Shown: positions 6,929-45,400 of the stretch, piece after piece | How positions within the stretch are numbered: the first letter of the stretch is position 1 | How the letters are laid out: the number at the start of each line of letters is the position of its first letter | Source: Polyangiaceae bacterium | Lineage (GTDB): Bacteria > Myxococcota_A > Polyangia > Polyangiales > Polyangiaceae | DNA: 64,000 bases | NCBI GenBank assembly: GCA_025936045.1 | Contig: JAICUB010000032.1 | Span: 1 to 64,000, forward strand | Direction: 5' to 3' | Notes under the pieces: generated by a model | What the model saw: the letters and a program-made list of their open reading frames with translations, nothing else | Databases searched by the model: none | What the model was told of the DNA's origin: nothing | Program-made: the position numbers and the translations under genes

Positions 6929-8926
6929 ATGCCTGAAGGCTCGTTTCCCACGGATGACGCCGTGCTGGTCGCTACACGGAACTGGCTCGAGCGCGCCGTG
7001 ATCGGGCTCGGGCTCTGTCCCTTTGCGAAGGGCGTGCACATGAAGGACCAGATCCGCTACGCAGTGAGCACGGCGGAAACACCGGGCGCGCTGCTCGTCG
7101 ATCTCCGGCGCGAGCTTCAGGCGCTGGCCGTGGCGGACGCCGAGCGGGTCGATACGGTGCTCCTCATCGCGCCGCGCGTGCTCGGCAATTTTCTCGACTA
7201 CAACGACTTTCTGCGGTCCGCGAACGGCGAGCTCGAGGCATTGGGCCTTTCCGGGGTGCTCCAGATCGCGAGTTTTCATCCGGACTACGAGTTCGGCGAC
7301 AGCGAGCCGAACGACGTGGCTCATCTCGCCGGTCGCTCGCCCTACCCCATGCTGCACCTTTTGCGCGAGGAGAGCGTGTCGCGGGCAGTCGCCGCGTTCC
7401 CCGACGCCGCGCGGATCTACGAGAAGAACGTCGCCACGCTCCGCGTCCTCGGTCACGACGGCTGGCGGCGTGTTCTCGCGGGCAGCGAAGACGCGCCCGC
7501 GGCTCCGGACGCCCTGCCCACTGCCGGCGGCTTTGCGGCGCTGCTGCCGGGCTCGCCGGCGCTCGGTGTGCTCGCCCAGCTTGGCTTCGACACGCCGACG
7601 GAGATCCAAGAAGGCAGCATTCCCGCCCTTCTTTCGGGGAACGATCTGGTCGGGCAATCGCAAACGGGCAGCGGAAAAACGGCCGCCTTCGCGCTGCCGC
7701 TGCTCGAGCGGGTGAACCTCCTAGCGCGCGAGCTCCAGGGTCTCGTGCTTTGCCCCACGCGCGAGCTCAGCGCGCAGGTCGCCCGCGAGCTCAGAAAGCT
7801 CGGGCGCGGACGCGCTGGACTTTCGGTCGTCGTGCTTTCGGGGGGAGAGTCCGTGCGCGATCAAACACGGACACTCGAGAAGGGCGTGCACCTTGCCGTC
7901 GGCACTCCCGGCCGCGTCATCGACCACCTGCAGCGCCGGACACTCCGGGTGCATCGTGTCGGCGTGGTCGTGCTCGACGAAGCCGACCGCATGCTGGACA
8001 TGGGCTTTCAGGCCGACATCGAGAAGATCCTGAAAGCGCTGCCGGCGACGCGCCAGACCGCTTTCTTCTCCGCCACATTCCCTGCCTCCATCCGCGAGCT
8101 CAGCGCCAAATATCAGCGCGACCCGCGCTGGGTCTCCGTGCGCGAGGACGTGCAGGAAGCCCCGGACATTCGCGAGCTCGTCGTGAGCAGCAGCGAAGAG
8201 GACAAGCTCGGGGCCCTGCGTGCGGCACTCGCTCGTCACGCGCACGAATCGGCGCTCGTCTTCGCGAACCAGAAACTTACCGTAAAAAAGCTCGAAGAAA
8301 GCCTGCACGTGTCCGGCGCGAGCGTCGCGGCCCTGCACGGCGATCTCGAGCAGCGCGATCGAGATCGCGTGCTCGCGAAGTTCCGTAACGGCAGCGTGCG
8401 CGTGCTCATTGCCACGGATGTCGTCGCCCGCGGCATCGACCTCGACGACCTCGATCTGGTCATCAACTTCGACCTCCCGAGCCAGCCCGAGATCTACGTG
8501 CATCGCATCGGTCGCACCGGCCGGGCCGGCAAAGCGGGCCTCGCGCTCTCCCTATGCACTCCCCGCGATCAGCCGAAACTCGAAGCGATCGAGGCGTACA
8601 CCGGTCGTCCGTTGGAGCTTTCGGGGCAGTCCTCGCCGGCCACGGCATCGGCCGCAAAAACCTGCAGCACGACGGTTCCGCTCGACGCAAAGATGGACAC
8701 TCTGCGTCTCTCCGGTGGCCGTAAGGACAAGCTGCGCCCGGGCGACATTCTCGGTGCGCTCACCGGCGAGGCTGGCGCGCTCCGCGGTGATCAGATCGGC
8801 AAGATCGAAATCCACGACCGTTTCTCGTTCGTCGCGCTCGCCCGCAGCGTGAGCGAGCGGGCGCTCACGAGCCTGCGGGCGGGGCGCATCAAAGGACGCC
8901 GCTTTCGCGTCGAGCGGGTCGAGTAG
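6929..8926 (+). CDS. DUF1415 - DEAD-box RNA helicase DbpA fusion
   Basis: A 665-residue protein in one open frame. Residues 1-188 match DUF1415 (NWLERAVIGLGLCPFAKG, the SFHPDYEF stretch, NRSPYPMLHLLRE-like ending), a domain of unknown function usually found alone. Residues 200-570 are a DEAD-box helicase: Walker A QTGSGKT (245-251), PTREL, GTPGR, DEAD (350-353), SAT, and HRIGRTGRAG. Residues 587-665 match the DbpA RNA-binding domain, which in Escherichia coli recognises hairpin 92 of 23S rRNA and acts in 50S assembly. The helicase part is therefore probably a ribosome-assembly factor; the role of the fused DUF1415 is unknown. The linker has no stop or frameshift. Confidence 0.92.
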   Translation: MPEGSFPTDDAVLVATRNWLERAVIGLGLCPFAKGVHMKDQIRYAVSTAETPGALLVDLRRELQALAVADAERVDTVLLIAPRVLGNFLDYNDFLRSANGELEALGLSGVLQIASFHPDYEFGDSEPNDVAHLAGRSPYPMLHLLREESVSRAVAAFPDAARIYEKNVATLRVLGHDGWRRVLAGSEDAPAAPDALPTAGGFAALLPGSPALGVLAQLGFDTPTEIQEGSIPALLSGNDLVGQSQTGSGKTAAFALPLLERVNLLARELQGLVLCPTRELSAQVARELRKLGRGRAGLSVVVLSGGESVRDQTRTLEKGVHLAVGTPGRVIDHLQRRTLRVHRVGVVVLDEADRMLDMGFQADIEKILKALPATRQTAFFSATFPASIRELSAKYQRDPRWVSVREDVQEAPDIRELVVSSSEEDKLGALRAALARHAHESALVFANQKLTVKKLEESLHVSGASVAALHGDLEQRDRDRVLAKFRNGSVRVLIATDVVARGIDLDDLDLVINFDLPSQPEIYVHRIGRTGRAGKAGLALSLCTPRDQPKLEAIEAYTGRPLELSGQSSPATASAAKTCSTTVPLDAKMDTLRLSGGRKDKLRPGDILGALTGEAGALRGDQIGKIEIHDRFSFVALARSVSERALTSLRAGRIKGRRFRVERVE

Positions 8927-31084: not shown

Positions 31085-33966
<2,882 letters not shown>

Positions 33967-34028: not shown

Positions 34029-34961
34029 TTACCCGTGCGGCCGCGTCACGGACGTGGCGAGGCCTGCCAGCTGGGCGAGGATCGCGAGAAAGAAGAGGGC
34101 GACGCTCGCGAAGGCGAGGCTCTCCCACGCAGCCTCGCGCCGGTGATCGCCGCGCTGCAGACGGATGCACAGCATCGCCGCGAGCGGCGCGAGCGCGAGC
34201 CAAAAGAGAGCGCCACGCGACGGAACGTCGAAGCACAGACCCAAGACCGCAAGCATGAATGCGATCAGGATCGAACCTTGGACGAGCCGGGCCGAGCGCT
34301 CCGGGCCGAGCAGGACGACCCAGCTCAGCTTGCCGACGCTGCGGTCACCGGCGTGATCCGGAAACTCGATCGTGACTAGCATCGCGATTTGCAGCAAAAC
34401 GAGCGGTGCGCTCAGCATCAGCGGAAACGGTTCGAAACGACCCGCCTGCACGAGAAAGCCCGCGAGCGGAGTGAGCAGTGGGACGACGAGTGCCGTCGCC
34501 GGCTCACCGAGTCCGCGGCTGTGGAGACGTAACGGAGGACCCGCGTGGGACCAGGCGAGAGCCTGCATGATCAAGAGGAGTCCGACGCTGCCGGCACGAT
34601 CCGGCGAGCGGAGCAGCAGCGTGAAAGCAGCCAGGAGCGCGAGCGAGCCCACGGCCGTCGCGGCGCGGAGAGCAACGTCGCGCGGAAGCTCCCCCTCGAC
34701 CAGAACGCGACTGCCACCCGACCAACGAGTAGGAGTCCGGTTGGCCTTGTCCGCCTCGTAGTCGTAGTAGTCGTTCGAGTAGTGAGTCATGAGCTGGATC
34801 GAGCTCACGGCGAGCTGGCCCAGCGCGAACGCTCCGAGCTCGAAGGGATATCCGCGTCGCAGCGCTGCGAGCGCGCCGAGGCCGTAGAGCGCGAAGCCTC
34901 CGAGCAGGAACACGGGGCGGCCGAGGCGCACGACGGCCGCCGCGCGCGCGATCGCGTTCAT
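34029..34961 (-). CDS. UbiA-family prenyltransferase (MenA-like)
   Basis: A 310-residue integral membrane protein with about eight or nine helices. Two Asp-rich motifs that bind prenyl diphosphate are present: NDYYDYEADK (NDxxDxxxD) and FPDHAGDRSVGK. The sequence is closest in style to 1,4-dihydroxy-2-naphthoate prenyltransferase. It is the last gene of the type III polyketide operon, separated by one base from the FAD oxidoreductase stop, and should attach an isoprenoid to the aromatic product. The ATG at 34961 is set by that junction; upstream in-frame codons belong to the neighbouring gene's region. Confidence 0.9.
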   Translation of the reverse strand: MNAIARAAAVVRLGRPVFLLGGFALYGLGALAALRRGYPFELGAFALGQLAVSSIQLMTHYSNDYYDYEADKANRTPTRWSGGSRVLVEGELPRDVALRAATAVGSLALLAAFTLLLRSPDRAGSVGLLLIMQALAWSHAGPPLRLHSRGLGEPATALVVPLLTPLAGFLVQAGRFEPFPLMLSAPLVLLQIAMLVTIEFPDHAGDRSVGKLSWVVLLGPERSARLVQGSILIAFMLAVLGLCFDVPSRGALFWLALAPLAAMLCIRLQRGDHRREAAWESLAFASVALFFLAILAQLAGLATSVTRPHG

Positions 34962-34962
34962 C

Positions 34963-36075
34963 TCAAGCGCCCCCCGCGAGCGCGACAAATGGCTGCATGG
35001 CGCCCGGGTATGCGCTGAAGCCTCGACGTGCGAGCTCGGCGAGACGCGGTCTCCCGGCGAGCGCGAGAACACCAGCGCCGAGCCAGCGATGCACGCGTAC
35101 GGCCTGGTCGCGCGCTCGTTCGAAGCGCCGGCGCGCCAACACGCTGCCTGTCAGGAGCGCGCACGCATGCTGTGCCAGAACATCGGCGCCGAGCAGAGCC
35201 AAGCTGAGACCGCCGGCTGTCACGGGATCGACACTCGCCGCGGCGTCCCCGAGCAAGATCAAACCCGGCGGCTCCGGCCCTCGACTCGAGCTCACGAGCG
35301 GTGCTCGGCCCATGAGCTCGCTCGTTTGTATCGCTCCTTCCAGCCAGTGTCGCAGCAACGGTTCGCGAGCGACCCAGCGCTCGAAACCACCGCGCAGATC
35401 GCCGCGCGCGGCGTCCTCGTGGGCGAGCGCCGCGACGAGGATCTCGTCGTTCGGCAGCGGCGTTACGTAGAGCTCATAGCCACGACACAGGAAGATCTCG
35501 ATGTCCGAGAGTGGCCGCATGTCGCGCGCGCGCCGAAAATGAGCGCGGATACCGACTCGGCGCGGACGAGCGACGTGCTCGAGGCCGAGCTTGCGCCGGA
35601 GTTTCGAACTGGAACCGTCCGCGGCAACGACGAGGCGGGCTCGGCAGGGTTGGCCGTCCACGACGACGCCCGTGACGCGGCCGCGTTCGTGGAGCAAGCC
35701 GTCCGCCCGTGCCCCGGAGGTCGCGCGCACGCCCCTCGTCCGAGCGGCGGCCGCCCACAGCGTCGCGTCGAGATGGATGCGCTTTTGGCCGAGGCCGTGC
35801 GGCGCGAGGGCGCCGTCGCCCGTGCCGAAGCCGGAGCGCACCGAACCGCCCGTCAGGTGATAACGCACGCCCGTGAGCGGTCGCCCGGCCACGGCGTCCG
35901 TGAGCTCGAGCGCGCGCAGCACGCCGACACCTGCCGGAAGCAGTCCCTCGCCGCAGGGCTTGTCGCGCGGGAAGGTGGCCTGGTCGTAGAGCTCGACTTC
36001 GAAACCACGACGTCCGAGCGCGATCGCGAGCGACGCGCCGGCGGGTCCGGCCCCGACGATGATCACGTCGGTCAT
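34963..36075 (-). CDS. FAD-dependent oxidoreductase (geranylgeranyl-reductase/monooxygenase family)
   Basis: A 370-residue flavoprotein: FAD site VIIVGAGPAGASLAIALGRRGFEVELYD, then DKPCGEGLLPAG, a second dinucleotide strand RLVVAADGSSS and the C-terminal GLILLGDAAASVDPVTAGGLSLALLGA, given here only as family landmarks. The family contains aromatic hydroxylases, halogenases and geranylgeranyl reductases. In a type III polyketide operon the likely role is ring hydroxylation of a resorcinol to a hydroquinone, as with flavin hydroxylases of phenolic-lipid operons. It overlaps the methyltransferase stop (ATGA). Confidence 0.9.
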   Translation of the reverse strand: MTDVIIVGAGPAGASLAIALGRRGFEVELYDQATFPRDKPCGEGLLPAGVGVLRALELTDAVAGRPLTGVRYHLTGGSVRSGFGTGDGALAPHGLGQKRIHLDATLWAAAARTRGVRATSGARADGLLHERGRVTGVVVDGQPCRARLVVAADGSSSKLRRKLGLEHVARPRRVGIRAHFRRARDMRPLSDIEIFLCRGYELYVTPLPNDEILVAALAHEDAARGDLRGGFERWVAREPLLRHWLEGAIQTSELMGRAPLVSSSRGPEPPGLILLGDAAASVDPVTAGGLSLALLGADVLAQHACALLTGSVLARRRFERARDQAVRVHRWLGAGVLALAGRPRLAELARRGFSAYPGAMQPFVALAGGA

Positions 36076-36650
36076 GGTCTCCCTCGCCCGACGCGTGGAA
36101 AAAACCGTGGCTTGTCACCCATGCTCGCGCAATACGCCGGATGCGCCAAGAGCACGCTCTCTTCGAGCAAGACGCGCCGCCGCAGCACCAAGACGTGCAG
36201 GGCCGAACCGACTGCGGCGGTGAACCAAGCACCTTGGACGAGTGGGAGCAGCAGAAGCTCGAGAAAGACGGCCACGTAGTTGGGATGCCGGAGGAATCGG
36301 TACGGCCCCGAGGTGACGACGCCGAGCGCGGCCGAATCGACCACACGCGCGTTCCAATGCTGACCGAGGCTACGGATGGCCGACACTCGCAGCAAGCTCG
36401 CGCCAAAGACGCCCCCGGCGGCGCTTGCGCCGAACCACCACGGGACCGTGCGCCCGCTCAGCAGCGGTTCCAGGATCGCCCCCGTGAGGACGGCGACGTG
36501 CAGGCCGACCATGCCGAGAAAGCCACGGTCGTCGACGATGCGCGCGCCGCGCTCGACGAGGCACCGGCGGTGACGCTGCGAAACGCGTAGCTCGAGCAAG
36601 CGAGTCACGGCGACCGAGCCGACGGACGCAACGAGCAGGGGCGTCAGCAC
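36072..36650 (-). CDS. Isoprenylcysteine carboxyl methyltransferase (ICMT)-family protein
   Basis: A 192-residue membrane methyltransferase with about four or five helices. The C-terminal signature GPYRFLRHPNYVAVFLE and EESVLLAHPAY holds the SAM-binding Arg-His-Pro-Asn and Glu residues of the ICMT/PEMT fold. Bacterial ICMT homologues paired with type III PKS genes methylate alkylpyrones or alkylresorcinols (BpsB type). I chose GTG 36650, which overlaps the end of the PKS gene; the open frame continues upstream inside the PKS gene. Confidence 0.88.
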   Translation of the reverse strand: MLTPLLVASVGSVAVTRLLELRVSQRHRRCLVERGARIVDDRGFLGMVGLHVAVLTGAILEPLLSGRTVPWWFGASAAGGVFGASLLRVSAIRSLGQHWNARVVDSAALGVVTSGPYRFLRHPNYVAVFLELLLLPLVQGAWFTAAVGSALHVLVLRRRVLLEESVLLAHPAYCASMGDKPRFFPRVGRGRP

Positions 36651-37693
36651 GGCTGGCCCCGCAACAGCGCAAGCTCGACGGTGATGCCCGGTCCGAACGC
36701 TGCGAGCAGGCCGTAGCCGCGCGGCCCTTGCCCGAGTGTTTCTCGCAACACGAACAGCACCGACGCGCTCGATTGATTCCCGTAGTGCGCGAGGACGTCC
36801 CACGAGGTGGCCGTCTGCGCCGGATTCAGCTCGAGCGTGCGTTCGAGCGCCTCGAGCACGCGACGGCCTCCGGGGTGCAGTACGAAGAACTCGAGATCCT
36901 TCGGCGCAAGGCCGTGGCGCCGAAGAAGCTGCCGCACGACTGCCGGGGTGCCGTCGGCGATGATGCGCGGCACGTTTTTCGAAAGGACGACGTAGAAACC
37001 GGAGTCGCGTAGGTCGAACCCCATGTCCTCGAGCGACGCCGGAAACAGTCCGGTTTGCGTCCCGACGATTTCGATGCCGGGCTGCGCGTTCCCTCCCTGC
37101 AGGAGCACGGCGGCGGCGCCGTCGCCGAAGAGTGCGCTCGCAACGATGTTTTCCGGCGACGGGTCGTCGCGTTGAAACGTGAGGCTCGGTAGCTCGACCG
37201 CCATCACCAACGCTCGGGCATGCGGGAACGCTCGCAGATGGCTATGTGCGAGCGCGAGTGCGCTTGCCCCACCCGCACACCCGAGCTCGGTCAAGGGCAG
37301 GCGACGCACGTCGTTGCGCAAGCCGAGTGGTTTCGCGAGCAGCGCCGCGAGCGACGGCAGCAAGACGCCGGTGCAAGACGAGGTGATGACCAGATCGATC
37401 TCCTCGGGAGCCAAGCGTGCTCGTGCGATGCAATCCTGCGCCGCGCGAAGCGCCAGCTCGACAGCGTGGCGACGGTAGAGCGCCATCCCCTCGGTCAGGC
37501 TGCGCGCTGCGCCCAGTCCCTCGAGCGGCACGACACTGTGCCGGCGGCGGACCCGCGTGTGGTCGAACAGAGTGCGAACCGACGCGGTTTTTTCGGCGTC
37601 GAGGCCGAGCGTCCGCGCGACTACGCCTGCCAGAGCGTGTTGCTCGATTGCATGGCGAGGGACCGCCGTACCGACGTGAGTGATGAACGCCAT
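36644..37693 (-). CDS. Type III polyketide synthase (chalcone synthase family)
   Basis: A 349-residue type III PKS. The catalytic triad is visible: Cys139 in ELGCAGGAS, His273 in VLHPGGRR and Asn306 in HYGNQSSAS; the C-terminal loop is AFGPGITVE. Length matches the family (about 350-390). The bacterial subtypes condense a fatty acyl starter with malonyl-CoA to give alkylpyrones or alkylresorcinols; the co-encoded methyltransferase, flavoprotein and prenyltransferase favour a phenolic lipid. It is the first gene of a coupled four-gene operon. Another possible start lies upstream, but ATG 37693 gives the expected MAFITHVGTAVP beginning. Confidence 0.93.
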   Translation of the reverse strand: MAFITHVGTAVPRHAIEQHALAGVVARTLGLDAEKTASVRTLFDHTRVRRRHSVVPLEGLGAARSLTEGMALYRRHAVELALRAAQDCIARARLAPEEIDLVITSSCTGVLLPSLAALLAKPLGLRNDVRRLPLTELGCAGGASALALAHSHLRAFPHARALVMAVELPSLTFQRDDPSPENIVASALFGDGAAAVLLQGGNAQPGIEIVGTQTGLFPASLEDMGFDLRDSGFYVVLSKNVPRIIADGTPAVVRQLLRRHGLAPKDLEFFVLHPGGRRVLEALERTLELNPAQTATSWDVLAHYGNQSSASVLFVLRETLGQGPRGYGLLAAFGPGITVELALLRGQPC

Positions 37694-37714
37694 GGACCCG
37701 AGGTACGCGCGACA

Positions 37715-37730
37715 AGCAGAGTCCGTGCCG
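37715..37730 (-). promoter_or_regulatory. Candidate sigma-54 promoter for the type III PKS operon
   Basis: The minus strand reads CGGCACGGACTCTGCT, which matches TGGCACGNNNNTTGCW except at the first base of each block; GG and GC have the exact -24/-12 spacing. The start site would be near 37704, leaving a leader of only about ten bases before the PKS start, which is short but possible. Confidence 0.45.
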
Positions 37731-37894
37731 ACCGCGCTGACCCGAGGCAGGGCGCGTCAGATTGTCACTTACGGCAACATGCGCGGGCATTCTGGAGGGA
37801 GGCGCCGCTCGGCCGACGACGAGGGCGGAGCACGGTGATCACGCCGGGGCGGAACACCGCGGCCCAATCGGCGCCTCGCGAGCGCTCACCTGCG

Positions 37895-39508
37895 CTACTG
37901 ACCCCAGCTGAGCTCGGTCGTCATGGTGATGACTTGCGCGTCGCCTTCGTAAACGTCGATGCGTGCGGCGCCCGCTCTTGCCGGGAAGCTCAGGTGTACG
38001 TCGCTCGGGCTACCTGGATTGATGACCGTGAAGTCTTGTACGCCCGTCGAGACGTCGAACGTCGTTACCGCCACGTTCACGAGGTCGGAGTAGTACCAGA
38101 CGCCGGCCATGCTGGGATCGCCCGTCCAAGTCATGCGGAAGCGGACCGGCTCCGTTGCCGGCGTGACGGCCGCGAGGCTGTATTCGCCGGCAACGCTGCC
38201 GGCTAGAGCCATCACGTTCGGGCCGTACGAGCCCTGCGCGGGAAAGCGGACGCGAGAAACCAACGGAAAGGCAGCCGCGTCTCGGAAATGTTGGATGTAG
38301 GTCTCGAAGGCCCCGAGATTGACGTTGAAGCCGAGCGCCGCATAGCGGTCGGTCATGTGCTGACGCACGAGCGCAGGGCTCACGAGCGAAGCCGCATTCA
38401 TCAGCTCCTGCCCCGCTTCCGTATCGCTCAACGTGCCGTCTTGCTCGAGGTCCTGCGAGATGACGGACAAGAGCTCGGAGACCTCGCTCACCGAGAGATA
38501 GCCTTGAAGCAGCGTGGAGATGGCGAGCAGCGCCGCATCCCCTTCCGAGCTTCCCGTTTCGTCGAGCTGTTCGGACGGCGGCAGGCCCGGTAACATGATG
38601 CCGAACGCAGCGAGCACCGCGGACTGGGCTTGTGCCTTGGCGTCATCGAAAGCGCTGCCGTGGGAAACCAAGTACTCGACGCGCGGCGCCTCGAGTTCGG
38701 TGAGGGCGTTGACGTTGACGATGACGCGATCACCGAGGTGGGAAAGCGCATAGAGCTGTAGCTGCGAGGTCGAATCTTCGTCCGTGACCTCGTCGTAGTA
38801 GAAGCCGTTCGCAGTGAGCTCTACGTACGAGCCCGAGGGCGCGTTCATCTCGACGATGAAGCGGCCCAGGTTGTCCGTGACTTGCGCGCTGAACGTCCGC
38901 CCCGTTTGACCGAGCGCGTCGTTCAGCTCGAGCGCGAGCAAGGACGCTCCGCGTTCGAACGCGCCCTTCTGCGCGACGCCGCCGAGCCGCACCAGGCCTG
39001 GTTCTTCGGCACCCGCTGCTCCGCCGAAGTCCGGGCTGTCGAAGTCCCCGCCGGTGCCCCCCGTCGCGGACACGCCGCCGGTCGCGCCGGATCCTCCAGC
39101 GACGCCTCCCGTGCCCAGGAAGCCCGCTGCTCCAGTTGAGCCGCCGGACGCGCCCCTGCCGGTCCTGCCGCCAGACCCGACGCGACCGCCCGCGCCAGCC
39201 CTCCCGCTCATGGTGCCACCCGTAGCAGTGCCGCGGCCGCCGGTCGTGCCGCCCGTAACGGTGGTTCCACCCGTGTTGGTGGTGGCGCCCGCGCCCGTCG
39301 CGCCGCCCGTGCCCGTAGTCGCTCCCGCGCCGACGCTGGCTCCGGCACCGGTCGTCTCCGAACTCCCACCGGTGCCAGGATTTTGGGAGCCACCGGAGTT
39401 TCCCTCGGAACCCAAGTACTGGGTCGACCGACCGCCACAACCGCCGTGAAGCGCGGCCGCGACCACGACCGGCAACCACGGGCAACGCTGCACGACACCT
39501 CGGTGCAT
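37895..39508 (-). CDS. Gly-rich lipoprotein with carboxypeptidase-regulatory-like domain
   Basis: A 537-residue lipoprotein: lipobox HGGC, a very long Gly/Thr/Ala linker (to about residue 175), then a domain starting LGGVAQKGAFERGASLLALELND with a beta-sandwich, an N-V-N-ALTELEAPRVEYLV segment, a helical middle (ALLAISTLLQGYLSVSEVSELL) and a C-terminal beta-rich part. The KGAF start and helical follow-up recur in other myxobacterial and Bacteroidota lipoproteins, where the first domain resembles a carboxypeptidase-regulatory fold. No enzyme motif is seen. It may bind polymers on the cell surface. Confidence 0.72.
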   Translation of the reverse strand: MHRGVVQRCPWLPVVVAAALHGGCGGRSTQYLGSEGNSGGSQNPGTGGSSETTGAGASVGAGATTGTGGATGAGATTNTGGTTVTGGTTGGRGTATGGTMSGRAGAGGRVGSGGRTGRGASGGSTGAAGFLGTGGVAGGSGATGGVSATGGTGGDFDSPDFGGAAGAEEPGLVRLGGVAQKGAFERGASLLALELNDALGQTGRTFSAQVTDNLGRFIVEMNAPSGSYVELTANGFYYDEVTDEDSTSQLQLYALSHLGDRVIVNVNALTELEAPRVEYLVSHGSAFDDAKAQAQSAVLAAFGIMLPGLPPSEQLDETGSSEGDAALLAISTLLQGYLSVSEVSELLSVISQDLEQDGTLSDTEAGQELMNAASLVSPALVRQHMTDRYAALGFNVNLGAFETYIQHFRDAAAFPLVSRVRFPAQGSYGPNVMALAGSVAGEYSLAAVTPATEPVRFRMTWTGDPSMAGVWYYSDLVNVAVTTFDVSTGVQDFTVINPGSPSDVHLSFPARAGAARIDVYEGDAQVITMTTELSWGQ

Positions 39509-39687
39509 CAGGCTCGCCAATTTAGCTCAATGTTCGTGAGCGGGCCCAATAGTGGGCCGAACGGCCTAATGTAACGCCGGCTCGCTCGCAGACTCGAGAA
39601 CACGTGCTCGACGGGCACGCCGTCGAGCACGACGAAGCGCCGGCTCACTGCGATCTCGACACGACGCGTCCGCGCTGCCGAGCGCAC
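39508..39687 (-). CDS. Possible small protein or gene remnant upstream of lipoprotein
   Basis: A 59-codon frame from GTG 39687 that ends exactly at the lipoprotein start (TGATG overlap). The middle codons have strong third-position GC bias (FVVLDGVPVEHVFSS). Continuing upstream in the same frame stays open for about 36 more codons without a good start. No family recognised; a decayed gene is as likely as a small one. The palindrome GTGCTCGACGG...CCGTCGAGCAC at 39604-39630 falls inside it and may simply reflect the coding sequence. Confidence 0.22.
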   Translation of the reverse strand: MRSAARTRRVEIAVSRRFVVLDGVPVEHVFSSLRASRRYIRPFGPLLGPLTNIELNWRA

Positions 39688-39845
39688 CGTCAGTAGAGTC
39701 TTCTGACGCCACTGTTGTCGGCGCGCAGTCGGCGCGCCGAGCGAAACCGCATCGCGTTCGGGGAAGCCATTCCTTCGTATCCATGCTTCACTAAGCCTTG
39801 CTCAACGTGGGACTCGTCGGTGTGCGTGGCCTCGGAATCATCGGC
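39688..39845. other. Divergent intergenic region before the DUF4215 gene
   Basis: This 158-base part of the 337-base divergent gap has no feature I can support beyond a possible leader for the 39846 gene. On the other side, GGCCC-AATAGT-GGGCC (39543-39558) forms a short hairpin. Confidence 0.4.
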
Positions 39846-41963
39846 ATGAGCGCACGGCGCTTCAGCATCCTCGCCATCGCGGCGGCGGCGCTCGCTTGCT
39901 CTTCGGTCCCGAACGACAAGGGCGACGGGGCGCTCGACGGCTCGGGCGGAGGCGACGGGGTCGTCGCCTCGGGCGGGAGCGGCACGGATGCGACCGGCGG
40001 CTCGAACGCGAGCGGTGGCTCGGCAACGAGCGGTGGCTCGAGCGGCGTCATCGTCGTCGGCGGTAGCGGGGGAACCGAGGGGGGCGGCGCTGCCGGGACG
40101 GGCGGCGACGACACTGACCCCGCGTACTGCGGTGACGGCCTCATCAATCACGCGGGCGAAGTTTGCGACGACGGCAACGCGCAGTCGGGCGACGGCTGCA
40201 CCGCGACCTGCCAAATCGAGGCAAACTTCGCTTGTCCGACGCCCGGCATGCCCTGCGTCAGCACCATCCGCTGCGGTGACGGCCGCGTCGAAGGCAACGA
40301 GACGTGCGACGACACGACGCACACGCCCGCGTCGGGTGACGGCTGCGACGAGCAGTGCCAGCTCGAGCCGGGCTACGTGTGTCCGGTACCCGGTGCCGCG
40401 TGCCGCCCCCTCTGTGGTGACGCCCTCCTTCTCGGCCGCGAGCAGTGCGACGACGGCAACACCACCACCGGTGACGGCTGCGACGACAACTGCGCGCTCG
40501 AGCCCGGCTGGGTGTGCCCGCTCGGCGAGCCTTGTCGCATGACCGTTTGCGGCGACGGGACGCAGGAAGGTTCCGAGCAGTGCGACGACGGCAATACGCA
40601 CCCTTACGACGGCTGCGCGCCTGATTGCACGAAGGAGCCGACGTGCGGCACCGACACGAGCCCCGTCGGAAAGTGCGTTTCGACGTGCGGCGACGGGATA
40701 CTGCTCGCGTCGGACGGTGAGGAATGCGACGACGGCAACGCCGTTTCCAGCGACGGGTGCAGCGCCGACTGCAAGCTCGAGGCGGGCTACCAATGCACGA
40801 CGGTCCTCGACAACCCTCCGGATTCGGTCGACCTGCCGATCGTCATTCGCGATTTCAAGAACGGCGACGACACGGACGGGCATCCGGATTTCGCCACGGA
40901 ATGCTGCGGAACACCGACGGGCGTCGTCGAGCCGCTGCTCGGGGCGGACCGCAAACCCGTCTACGCCGGTACGGACGCGACACCGATGCCCACGACCACG
41001 GGCAAAACGAACTTCGATCAGTGGTACCGCGACGTCGACACCGTGAACATGCGCTTCGATCAGACCATCACGCTCGCCCACACGGCGACGGGCGCCTACT
41101 CGATGAACAGCGCCACCGACGCGCCGTGGGCGCAGCTCACTAGCCCGGCGGGGTTCTTCCCGATCGACGACATGGGCTTCGGCAACGAAGACCTCTCCCA
41201 CAACTACTCGTTTACGAGCGAGCTTCGCTACTGGTTCGAGTTCAAAGGCAACGAGGTTTTGAACTTCAGCGGTGACGACGACGTCTGGGTCTTCCTCAAC
41301 GGCCAACTCGCCGTCGACCTCGGAGGCGTACACGCGCGTGAGTACGGCACGGTCGCGCTCGACGCGATGGGCCACGGTCAGAGCTGTACGGGCCAGAGCT
41401 GCACCCCTGCCGGCGACACCGACTTTGGCCTGGAGGTCGGCAACATCTACGAGACGGTCGTCTTTCAAGCCGAGAGGAACCCCCGCGACTCCAACTATTG
41501 GCTGACGCTGACGAACTTCCTCGCCGGCAAGAGCCAATGCACTCCTGTCTGTGGTGACGGCGTCGTCACGGCGAACGAGGCCTGCGACCTCGGCGCGGCG
41601 AACAACATGGGAGCCGAGGGCGGCTGCAATCCTGACTGCACCCTGGCCGCATACTGCGGCGACGGTCACGTGGACCCGGGGGAAGTGTGCGACGACGGTT
41701 CGAATACGAGCACCTACGGCGGCTGCGCGGCGGGCTGCGTGCTCGGACCCACCTGTGGCGACGGCGTCGTGCAAGCACCCTTCGAGGAGTGCGACGACGG
41801 CATGAACGCCGGCGGCTACGGCGGATGCGACCCCGATTGCCAATACGGTCCGCGCTGCGGCGACGGCACCGTCGACGCCGCGCACGAGCAATGCGACGAC
41901 GGCTCCCAGAACGGCAAGGACGGCGTCTGCCGCGGCGACTGTACCCCTCAGGGCGTGCGTTGA
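39846..41963 (+). CDS. DUF4215 / fibro-slime domain lipoprotein
   Basis: A 705-residue surface lipoprotein. Signal with lipobox ALAC, a Gly/Ser/Ala linker, then multiple DUF4215 (myxococcus Cys-rich) repeats of the form CGDGxxxxxExCDDGNxxxGDGC: about five before a fibro-slime domain and four after. The fibro-slime domain (about residues 335-560) has LPIVIRDFKNGDD, FAT ECCG, ELRYWFEFKGNEVLNFSGDDDVWVFLNGQLAVDLGG and GNIYETVVFQAERNP, listed only as landmarks; the PA14-like fold often binds sugar with calcium. It is probably an adhesin or extracellular matrix protein. ATG 39846 gives a proper signal; TTG 39798 is the furthest alternative. Confidence 0.88.
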   Translation: MSARRFSILAIAAAALACSSVPNDKGDGALDGSGGGDGVVASGGSGTDATGGSNASGGSATSGGSSGVIVVGGSGGTEGGGAAGTGGDDTDPAYCGDGLINHAGEVCDDGNAQSGDGCTATCQIEANFACPTPGMPCVSTIRCGDGRVEGNETCDDTTHTPASGDGCDEQCQLEPGYVCPVPGAACRPLCGDALLLGREQCDDGNTTTGDGCDDNCALEPGWVCPLGEPCRMTVCGDGTQEGSEQCDDGNTHPYDGCAPDCTKEPTCGTDTSPVGKCVSTCGDGILLASDGEECDDGNAVSSDGCSADCKLEAGYQCTTVLDNPPDSVDLPIVIRDFKNGDDTDGHPDFATECCGTPTGVVEPLLGADRKPVYAGTDATPMPTTTGKTNFDQWYRDVDTVNMRFDQTITLAHTATGAYSMNSATDAPWAQLTSPAGFFPIDDMGFGNEDLSHNYSFTSELRYWFEFKGNEVLNFSGDDDVWVFLNGQLAVDLGGVHAREYGTVALDAMGHGQSCTGQSCTPAGDTDFGLEVGNIYETVVFQAERNPRDSNYWLTLTNFLAGKSQCTPVCGDGVVTANEACDLGAANNMGAEGGCNPDCTLAAYCGDGHVDPGEVCDDGSNTSTYGGCAAGCVLGPTCGDGVVQAPFEECDDGMNAGGYGGCDPDCQYGPRCGDGTVDAAHEQCDDGSQNGKDGVCRGDCTPQGVR

Positions 41964-41987
41964 GAACCCCGCCGCCCGCGACATTTC

Positions 41988-42377
41988 ATGGCATCGATCA
42001 AAAAAGAGATCTCGACTTCCGCTAAGCTCGACGTGGTCTGGGCAGCGATCCGTGACATCGGAGCGCTGCACACTCGCCTGGTTCCAGGCTTCGTCTTGGA
42101 CACGCGGGTCGAAGGCAACGCGCGCTGGGTCACGTTTGCGAACGGCTCGGTCGTGAAGGAGGTGATCGTAACCGTCGACGATGAGCAGCACCGCTTGGTG
42201 TGGACTACCGAGGGCGGCATACTCACGCACTACAATGGTTCGGTTCAGGTGGTCGCCACGCCGGATGGCAGTCGCGTCACGTGGCTTGCCGACCTCTTGC
42301 CGGACACGGCAGAAAAAACCATCGACGGCATGATGAGCCAGGGCATGGCCGCGATGCAGACGGCGCTCGGTCGCTGA
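41988..42377 (+). CDS. SRPBCC (polyketide cyclase-like) protein
   Basis: A 129-residue START/SRPBCC fold protein: KKEISTSAKLDVVWAAIRDIGALHTRLVPGFV, then alternating strands RWVTFANGSVVKEVIVTVD, HRLVWTTEGG and the long C-terminal helix TIDGMMSQGMAAMQTAL. Members bind hydrophobic ligands or act as cyclases; no more can be said. It follows the DUF4215 lipoprotein by 24 bases. Confidence 0.85.
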   Translation: MASIKKEISTSAKLDVVWAAIRDIGALHTRLVPGFVLDTRVEGNARWVTFANGSVVKEVIVTVDDEQHRLVWTTEGGILTHYNGSVQVVATPDGSRVTWLADLLPDTAEKTIDGMMSQGMAAMQTALGR

Positions 42378-42414
42378 GCCGCCTTCCGAGTCCGGCGCCG
42401 ACCGAGGCTCACTC

Positions 42415-45400
42415 CTAGCCGCTCCGATTTCCAGCCGCGAGCTGCGAAACCACCGACACGAGCGCGCGAGGGTCGACCGGCTTTCCGAGGTGCACGTTGT
42501 AGCCGGCGGCCATGGCTTTGGCGCTGTCCTCTTCTCGCACGAAGGCGCTCAACGCGACCGCCGGAACGTTGCCGCCGTCCTTTTCCGGAAGCGCGCGGAC
42601 ACGCGCCATGAAGGAGTAGCCGTCTTCGTCGGGCATGCCGATGTCGCTCACGATGACGTGCGGGCGGAGTGTGCGCAGCGCCTCGAAGCCTTTGCGCGCC
42701 GACCTGAACGTTTCTACCGAGGCTCCGCCTTCGGTGAGTACTTCCATGATGAGCTCGAGAGCATCGGGGTCGTCGTCCACCACCAAAACGCGAAGCCCTG
42801 CAAGCAACGGCCGAGCTGGCGAGGGCGCGGCAGGCGCGGGCGGTGCGTCGGAAGGTGCGACGGCGCGGACCGGGAGCGTCAGCGTGAAGGTTGCTCCCCT
42901 GCCGACGCCTTCGCTGAATGCCTCGACTGTCCCGCGATGGAGCTCGACGATGTTCCGGACGAGCGCAAGACCGAGACCGAGCCCGCCGACGCGTCTCGTC
43001 GTCGTCGAGTCCGCCTGGCGAAACCGATCGAAGACGAAGGGGAGGAACCCCGGATCGATGCCGACGCCGTTGTCCGATACCGACAGGACGACGCGTGAGC
43101 CCTCTTGCCGGACTTTCACCACGACCTTCCCGCCCGTATCCGTGAACTTCACGGCGTTCGACAGCAGGTTCCAGATTGCCTGCTGCAAGCGCTCGGGGTC
43201 CGCCACCAGCAGACAACAGCTGCTTTCGGCGTTGAATTCGAGCTCGACGCGCTTGGCGCTCGCCGACGGGCGTACCACCTCGAGCGCATCGCGCACGACG
43301 GGGACCAAGTCGATGGGCTTCGCGTCGATGCGAAACTTGCCCGTGATCACGCGCGACACATCCAGAATGTCGTCGATGATCTTCACCTGTGCCTGCGCGT
43401 TGCGATAGATGACGTCGATCGGCTTCGTGAGGCTCGGAGCCGTCACGCGGTCCTTCAAGAGCCGCGCCCAGCCGAGGATGGCGCTCAGCGGCGTGCGAAG
43501 CTCGTGCGACACGGTCGCGAGGAACTCGTCTTTCGCCTTGCTCGCTTCCTCGGCGCGACGAGCCGCGTTTTGCGCGTCGGCGTAGAGTCGCGAGTTTTCG
43601 AGCGCTGCCCCCGTTCGTCGTCCGATTTCCTCGGCGAGCGCGACGTGCGACCAGTCGTACCGGCCGCGAGCACCCTGGGAAAAGAACACGATGACACCGA
43701 CGGTCGCTCCGCGGAGCTTGATTGGAGCGAGGAGCGAGGAGCTCGGCGCCGAGGGAGAGTCCACGGCGAAAATGCCGCCTTCTCCTGCGCGAATCACGTG
43801 CCAAGGGCCGTGCAGCTCCGCTCTCGTGGTAGCGAGGTAAGTCTGGAAATCCATTGCGGCGCGCAGCTGTTCCGAGGGCGCGCCGGCGACCGCCAAAGGA
43901 CGCAAATCCTCCTCGGACCCGAGCGCGACGCCGCACCAATCAGCGAGACCTGGAACCAGCGCATCGGCGAGCGCCTCCAGCATCTCGGCTTCATCGAGTG
44001 ACGTCCCGAGCGCTGCGGTCGCCTCGGCTAGATAGCGCGTCTGACGCTGTTGCCGCCGCTCCGCCGTGATGTCGTGCAAAATCGTAATCGTGAGCTCGGG
44101 CTCGCCGCCGCCCCCCGATACCTTGTTCGTACGCGCCGACACCCAGCGATCGCGCCGGCTGGCGCGATCCCTCAGGTGGACGACGCGGCCCGAGGTTTGG
44201 CCGGGCGAGGTGCCTCCAAACGGCGCTGGTGAGGGTTCGACGCTCCTGTCCTGTTCGTCGAGTAGCTCGATGCGCGACAGAACACCCCCCGCTGCGTTCA
44301 AAAGCTCGAGCACGCTCGCGAAGCCGAACAGCTCCGCCGCCATCGCGTTGGCAAAGACGGCCCCGCCCGCGACATCTTGCGCGATGATCGCGTCGGCGAC
44401 GCCTTCGAACATCACCTGCAACCGTTCGCTCAACGCGCGGTAGCGCTCCTCGCTCCCTCGGATGCGATGTTCGGCTTCTTCCGCCGCTGCGCGCGCGGCC
44501 TGTTCGCGCACCAGGGCTCGTTGCTTTTCCTCCGCTTCGCGCCGCACCGTGAGGTCGCGCGTGATCTTGGCGAAGCCGAGCAGCGCGCCGCGCGCGTCAT
44601 AGAGGGCCGTAACGATGGCATTGGCCCAGAAGCGCGTGCCGTCCTTGCGTACGCGCCAACCTTCGTCTTCGAAGCGTCCCCTGGTCCGCGCGGCCTCGAG
44701 CTCACGCGCCGGCTTGCCGGCGTCGACGTCCTCCTGCGGGAAGAAGAGCGCAAAATTGCGCCCGATGATCTCGGTTGCGAGATACCCTTTCATGCGTTCC
44801 GCCCCGACGTTCCAGGTCGAGACGCGACCTTCCGGATCGAGCATGTAGATGGCGTAGTCGCCGATGTTCTCGATCAGGAGCCGGAAACGTTCCTCGGACT
44901 TTCGCAGCTCCTCCTCGACGTGGCGCCGCTGCGTGAGGTCTCGCGTTACTTTCGCAAAACCGATCACTTTACCGCTCGAGTCTCGCAACGCAGTGATGAC
45001 GACGTTGGCCCAGAAGCGCGAGCCGTCCTTTTTTACGCGCCAACTCTCGTCTTCGACGCGTCCTTCTCGACGTACCGTGTCGAGGATGTGTTCGGGCTTC
45101 CCGGCGCGACGATCCTCTTCCGTGTAGAAGACGGAGAAGTGCCGTCCCAGGATGTCTTTTTCGCGGTAGCCTTTGAGGCGCTCGGCGCCCGAGTTCCAGG
45201 TCGCGATATGACCGGTCGCGTCGAGCATGAAGATGGCGTAGTCGATGACCGCATCGACCAAATGGTGGAAGCGCTGTTCGGATTGCCTGAGGGCCTCCTC
45301 ATCGAGGCGCTTGGCCGTGAGGTCGCGCGTGACCTTGCCGAACCCGCGTAGTTCGCCACTTTCGTCGCGAATAGCGGTAATGACGACGTTCGCCCAGAAC

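Follow-up and report, generated by a model that had tools for sequence, protein, structure and literature searches.

A compact block of four genes in a Polyangiaceae bacterium appears to encode a pathway that makes an aromatic compound from a polyketide and then prenylates and methylates it, probably yielding a quinone or hydroquinone, a reading of the gene content to which we assign a probability of about 0.6. The block is located on the minus strand of contig JAICUB010000032.1 (assembly GCA_025936045.1), of which positions 1 to 64,000 were analyzed and are referred to as the window. In order, the genes code for a type III polyketide synthase (PKS; 36644 to 37693, 349 residues, catalytic Cys139-His273-Asn306), an ICMT-type membrane methyltransferase (36072 to 36650, 192 residues, GTG start), an oxidoreductase dependent on flavin adenine dinucleotide (FAD; 34963 to 36075, 370 residues), which is likely an aromatic hydroxylase, and a prenyltransferase of the UbiA superfamily (34029 to 34961, 310 residues). 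The place and strand given to these genes in a preliminary description were borne out by the positions of the open reading frames and by the Pfam domains Chal_sti_synt_N/C, ICMT, FAD_binding_3 and UbiA, each of which exceeded its gathering score.

In the pathway that we propose, the PKS would take a small starter or malonyl itself, as suggested by its residues, and extend it with malonyl units to yield a ring to which the UbiA enzyme would add an isoprenoid chain. The ICMT-type enzyme would methylate the product, most likely at a hydroxyl, and the FAD enzyme would hydroxylate the ring to a quinol or quinone. The lipid tail would thus stem from the isoprenoid and not, as in pathways of the SrsABC/PkQ type, from a fatty-acyl starter. 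The substrates, the order of the steps, the quinone end product and a role in membrane redox reactions are all predictions. The methylated, oxidised and prenylated polyketide of the preliminary description is still the best reading of the product, which may be a phenol, a pyrone or a quinone and may or may not have an alkyl tail.

All four genes overlap or are one base apart, and are presumably co-transcribed. The PKS and ICMT genes overlap as previously described, although the GTG begins four bases before the TGA (GTGCTGA) rather than inside the stop codon, while the ATG of the FAD gene does overlap the TGA of the ICMT gene (ATGA) and a single base does separate the FAD TGA from the UbiA ATG (TGAGATG). 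All four genes were found with an identical order and orientation in one further Polyangiaceae genome (locus L005 of the metagenome-assembled genome G558; L005 and L167 are one contig, JAICTZ010000001.1 or G558:C5, and were counted once). The identity to the window proteins was 79-80% for the PKS, the FAD enzyme and UbiA, the three that were measured. At the DNA level, positions 34046 to 37738 were conserved at 76% identity, corresponding to the four-gene block and about 45 bp upstream, and the sole other match in the window was at 7898-8023. The block is identical in arrangement while the adjacent DNA is not conserved, and the arrangement is not due to chance. L005 was the one close relative in a scan of 217 relatives, of which the best 80 were considered; the remaining 79 rows were 22-30% identical.

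The conserved upstream stretch (37694 to 37738, minus strand) contains a weak sigma-54-like site at 37715-37730 with 2 mismatches. The suggestion of a sigma-54 promoter is weaker than originally claimed, as the window contained 11 matches at this level and shuffled sequences predicted 9.15. The corresponding place in L005 had a site with 3 mismatches. In the set of 16 loci that were compared, G559, which belongs to the same genus and has a different PKS type, also had a site with 2 mismatches, and the best sites at four other UbiA-linked loci (L168, L174, L115, L116) had 4 mismatches and that at L181 had 5.

We examined the association between the PKS and UbiA in a broader set of genomes. The PKS query (P0001) matched 117 of 377 genomes from the phylum at a threshold of 1e-15 and 193 of 317 genomes from the class at 1e-10, while the UbiA query (P0004) matched 124 of the 317 class genomes at 1e-12. 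Defining this PKS type by a match of 300 bits or more, 16 of the 317 genomes contained it and all 16 contained the UbiA type (14 in full, G386 and G382 as fragments), as compared to 13 of the other 301 genomes (Fisher test, 2e-19, not corrected for kinship). In G553, both genes were present at a distance of 1.2 Mb from each other. Furthermore, ICMT and UbiA are encoded by a single frame directly 3' of the PKS gene in G393, G390, G389, G387 and G392 of a sister lineage, in which the G393 protein matches ICMT at residues 86-184 and UbiA at 234-483. In G386 the fused gene is cut off by the end of the contig, and in G391 it is located on a contig without a PKS gene. Situated beside the PKS gene, this fusion provides strong evidence for a single pathway. 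The assignment of UbiA to the polyketide product, as first proposed from the window alone, is thus supported by the operon, by the gene fusion and by a co-occurrence that extends to the unlinked genes in G553.

The UbiA gene is situated in the same direction as the other three in the window and in G558, and is convergent to PKS-ICMT-FAD in G267, G381, G395, G394 and G559, as well as in G363 as judged from contig ends. In the PKS tree, 14 UbiA-associated sequences formed one group (support 91/85, just below the star threshold). The G553 sequence was placed outside this group at an open fork, and the G559 sequence was placed with starred support in a PKS11-like group, so this UbiA type has met two different PKS types. 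The 13 genomes with UbiA but not this PKS type comprised G559, in which the PKS11-like gene adjoins UbiA, G391, in which the fusion was found and no PKS, and 11 others.

Could the UbiA enzyme serve in menaquinone synthesis, being located in the operon by chance? Its best NCBIfam matches were indeed to MenA models, at 58 bits against a cut-off of 225 (25.7 against 102 for TIGR00751). However, the genome contains four UbiA genes, and the other three were above cut-off as heme o synthase (CyoE), MenA and decaprenyl-phosphate phosphoribosyltransferase (DPPR synthase). The separate MenA gene scored 329 bits (cut-off 264) and adjoins menB, with a fragment resembling menH where the examined stretch ends. 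The preliminary description had named a MenA-like UbiA in a genome with no other MenA as the finding that would overturn its reading; because a separate MenA gene lies beside menB, this objection fails. The operon enzyme has a UbiA domain with both aspartate-rich motifs, which identifies it as a superfamily prenyltransferase, and a stretch TRWSGGSRVL, of which SGGSRVL was absent from the two MenA sequences compared. We therefore rejected it as MenA in this genome. In addition to the fusion with ICMT in the sister lineage, the distribution of menaquinone genes also speaks against this role. MenB was over cut-off in the Polyangiaceae-group genomes G000, G558 and G553, whereas a search of 13 f17 genomes gave no MenB over cut-off; the MqnA/MqnD family of the futalosine route was present in 15 of 15 f17 genomes searched, and yet UbiA adjoins the PKS gene in this group. 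The PKS-UbiA system therefore coexists with both menaquinone routes, and the menaquinone explanation is very improbable; for this genome it could be revived only if the MenA at locus L002 were inactive.

The third gene differs between lineages in a manner that bears on the product. Each of the 10 non-fused genomes with this PKS type gave a match to the FAD enzyme of at least 147 bits, and none of the 7 genomes of the fused type did so (E 1e-25; 23 genomes searched); weaker matches were obtained in G559 (93 bits) and G331 (96 bits). The fused type instead has a U32-family gene directly before the PKS gene, as seen at each of the six loci for which data were available (L179, positions 1752-2852, and L182, L183, L186, L187 and L194). 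The L179 protein matches PF01136, and no NCBIfam match was obtained for this gene. Four cysteines spaced CX3CX23CX3C, followed by a C-terminal CX4CX2CX2C, were conserved in 6 of 6 sequences; the published motif is CX6CX15CX3/4C. The U32 oxidases described in the literature consulted add hydroxyl groups to the rings of ubiquinone or to bases of RNA (PMC6747719, PMC11574389), and the UbiU-UbiV pair from this family replaces the oxygen-dependent hydroxylases of ubiquinone synthesis when oxygen is absent (PMC6747719). The exchange of the FAD gene for a U32 gene parallels this replacement and thereby suggests a quinone product.

NorB-like nitric oxide reductase genes were observed near the U32-PKS-(ICMT-UbiA) genes at L186 (11208-13631, minus strand), L187 (13296-14999, minus strand) and L179 (197-1714). 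In G387, such a gene is the next one upstream and contains a cytochrome-like domain in the same chain, which we take to indicate the quinol type. In G392, it is located one gene further, past a cobalamin-independent methionine synthase gene, and a partial copy is adjacent in G393; none was seen in the examined stretches of G390 and G386.

To the residues of the PKS we turned for the nature of the starter. The Cys-His-Asn triad is intact in an alignment with PKS11, THNS and PKS18. Cys107 corresponds to Cys106 of THNS and Ser143 of PKS18, Pro169 to Cys205 of PKS18, and Phe226 to Tyr224 of THNS and Leu266 of PKS18. At these three positions, which are sites of the starter tunnel or of starter choice in the relatives, the protein departs from the PKS11-like (alkylpyrone) type. 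Tyr224 favours a malonyl starter in THNS/RppA, while Ser143, Cys205, Ala209 and Leu266 line the acyl tunnel of PKS18 (PMC6274091). Cys107 and Phe226 were present in all 15 extracted PKSs with at least 300 bits (G382 not included), and Pro169 in 14 of these and in none of 39 other rows. An AMP-binding ligase gene was located beside 21 of 37 PKS loci without UbiA (L118-L154), including 19 of 29 with ICMT, whereas the 14 UbiA-linked loci had none, although in some of them the contig stops shortly beyond the operon; the counts omit L117, L198 and L199, which have no ICMT or are short loci with UbiA elsewhere. The residues and the absence of a ligase fit a small starter and a tail supplied by UbiA, without amounting to proof. 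AlphaFold models from two-row alignments had confidence scores (predicted local distance difference test) of 33 for the FAD enzyme and 45 for the PKS, too low for use.

Several observations weigh against the proposed pathway. The genomes are related, and the co-occurrence counts are therefore not independent. Of the 11 genomes with UbiA and neither this PKS type nor the features of G559 and G391, 9 belong to f12/g60 and 7 have only 50-89-bit PKS matches, so UbiA must have other substrates or another partner enzyme in these genomes. The next-closest PKSs, in G331, G473 and G474 (285, 278 and 271 bits), come from genomes without a match to this UbiA. The UbiA tree, which excludes the genome's own DPPR synthase (no match) and the fragments from G386, G382 and G415, shows PKS-bearing and PKS-free rows mixed together; this favours gain or loss of the link to the PKS. 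Cys107 and Phe226 occur also in PKSs without UbiA (G331, G368, G292, G339, G370), leaving Pro169 as the only residue restricted to the group, with a cysteine in G553 as the exception. Close U32 matches were confined to the fused type among the 23 genomes except for G383, a genome with the FAD gene, in which a match of 318 bases at 88% was located at a contig start and may represent contamination; paralogs at 33-36% were found in fused-type genomes and G331. Finally, the FAD enzyme matched broad families (the GG-reductase superfamily, MenJ, UbiH, halogenases), with none of the 25 families listed passing its cut-off, for which reason its role as a hydroxylase is an inference; similarity that goes no further than these families would also accommodate a halogenase or a geranylgeranyl reductase.

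Two other products should be considered. One is an alkylpyrone or alkylresorcinol of the SrsABC/Bps kind, with UbiA prenylating a long-chain phenolic lipid that has no redox role. A PKS with ICMT, and often an FAD gene, is common to many Myxococcota loci, the relatives PKS11 and PKS18 use long acyl starters (PMC6274091), many members of the phylum have alkylpyrone clusters (PMC12224551), and PKS11-like PKSs are paired with UbiA both in G559 and on a Streptomyces plasmid. The altered tunnel and starter residues and the lack of a neighbouring ligase at 14 of 14 UbiA-linked loci, with the contig edges in mind, argue against it, even if the acyl-CoA pool could still supply starters without a ligase, and we regard such a lipid as rather unlikely. 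We consider it improbable that the product is instead a meroterpenoid on the plan of the plant cannabinoids and daurichromenic acid or of fungal compounds, in which case the FAD enzyme would act on the prenyl chain by epoxidation or another oxidation. Plant and fungal pathways of this kind share the logic of a PKS, a UbiA enzyme and a flavoenzyme, and the FAD enzyme is weakly similar to squalene epoxidase; orcinol-type type III PKSs offer a comparison (PMC5037138). However, the operon has no cyclase gene, and the fused-type genomes have swapped the FAD gene for a member of a family whose described oxidases act on ubiquinone rings or RNA bases (PMC6747719, PMC11574389).

Close relatives of UbiA were also observed in f12 genomes without the PKS type (L171, L172, L176, L177, L180, L184, L188, L189). 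An all-against-all comparison of 12 UbiA loci without an adjoining PKS gene yielded small groups with shared frames, some of which were opposite strands of the same DNA and not all of which were named; no common ring-making partner was noticed. In the sampled phylum of G590 (L077, Nocardiopsis), UbiA matches were obtained in 40 of 396 genomes, with a top score of 99.8 bits, and no PKS, ICMT or FAD match was found at the loci checked (30 with flanks of about 1.5 kb and 19 larger regions, partly overlapping; E 1e-4). Next to the operon in the window, a frame judged by eye to be GroEL-like (31225-33966, plus strand) converges on the operon, leaving 62 bases between its end and the stop codon of UbiA, and has a C-terminus with no GGM repeat. 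Upstream of the operon, three long open frames, which may or may not be genes, of 541, 846 and 564 residues (37895-43939, minus strand) had no Pfam match.

The common isoprenoid quinones have head groups from the shikimate/chorismate line. We tentatively raise the possibility that the four genes constitute a separate route to an isoprenoid quinone, with a head built by a PKS, prenylated by UbiA, methylated and hydroxylated, which would act as an electron carrier beside menaquinone and exist in an oxygen-using form with the FAD enzyme and an oxygen-independent form with the U32 protein and the ICMT-UbiA fusion. The genes for the latter form are located near those for the presumed quinol-type nitric oxide reductase in some genomes. 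The pair of PKS and UbiA with swappable flavin and U32 partners opens the idea of an isoprenoid quinone with a polyketide head to direct testing, and represents a bacterial enzyme set for prenylating polyketides of a kind otherwise known from plants or fungi.

Among known systems, SrsABC/PkQ of Streptomyces and Mycobacterium likewise have a methyltransferase and an FAD oxidoreductase in one operon with the PKS, judged for the window from the overlapping genes. They consist of three genes without a prenyltransferase, and neither "prenyl" nor "UbiA" occurs in the text of the paper on them, whereas UbiA is the fourth gene in the window. Their alkyl tail comes from an acyl starter, whereas here no ligase gene neighbours the operon and the residues at the starter sites are altered. 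The head group of ubiquinone is derived from chorismate, while a type III PKS would provide it here, and the window UbiA is distant from that of E. coli. The ubiquinone pathway (UbiA, methyltransferases, and UbiH/I/F or UbiU-UbiV) does resemble the window set in combining prenyl transfer, methylation and hydroxylation by FAD or U32 enzymes (PMC6747719 for U32). Within the Myxococcota, the alkylpyrone cluster BGC0001831 (Hug 2019, cited in PMC12224551) is likewise based on a type III PKS, and the common PKS11-like type, unlike the window PKS, has V/C/W at the three positions in most cases and is often accompanied by an AMP-binding ligase.

The combination had been called uncommon in the preliminary description, a claim that has to be toned down. 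The actinobacterium Gephyromycinifex aptenodytis has UbiA, a type III PKS, ICMT and an FAD oxygenase in one cluster, compared here by its description only, which was assigned to alkylresorcinol by cluster similarity (PMC8779670). In the loseolamycin clone, losA forms one stretch with genes for UbiA, an acyl-CoA dehydrogenase and a methyltransferase, and the products are called alkylresorcinols (PMC7587189). On a plasmid of Streptomyces sp. NBC_01237 (L295, 6016-9603; the record has no annotation there), PKS-ICMT-FAD genes are accompanied by a divergent UbiA-like gene, with a PKS11-like signature in the PKS and another UbiA subtype. Since actinobacterial clusters have this pairing, including one with another subtype, UbiA has probably been joined to the PKS-ICMT-FAD trio more than once, and the window set is a variant of a four-function combination already published for an actinobacterium.

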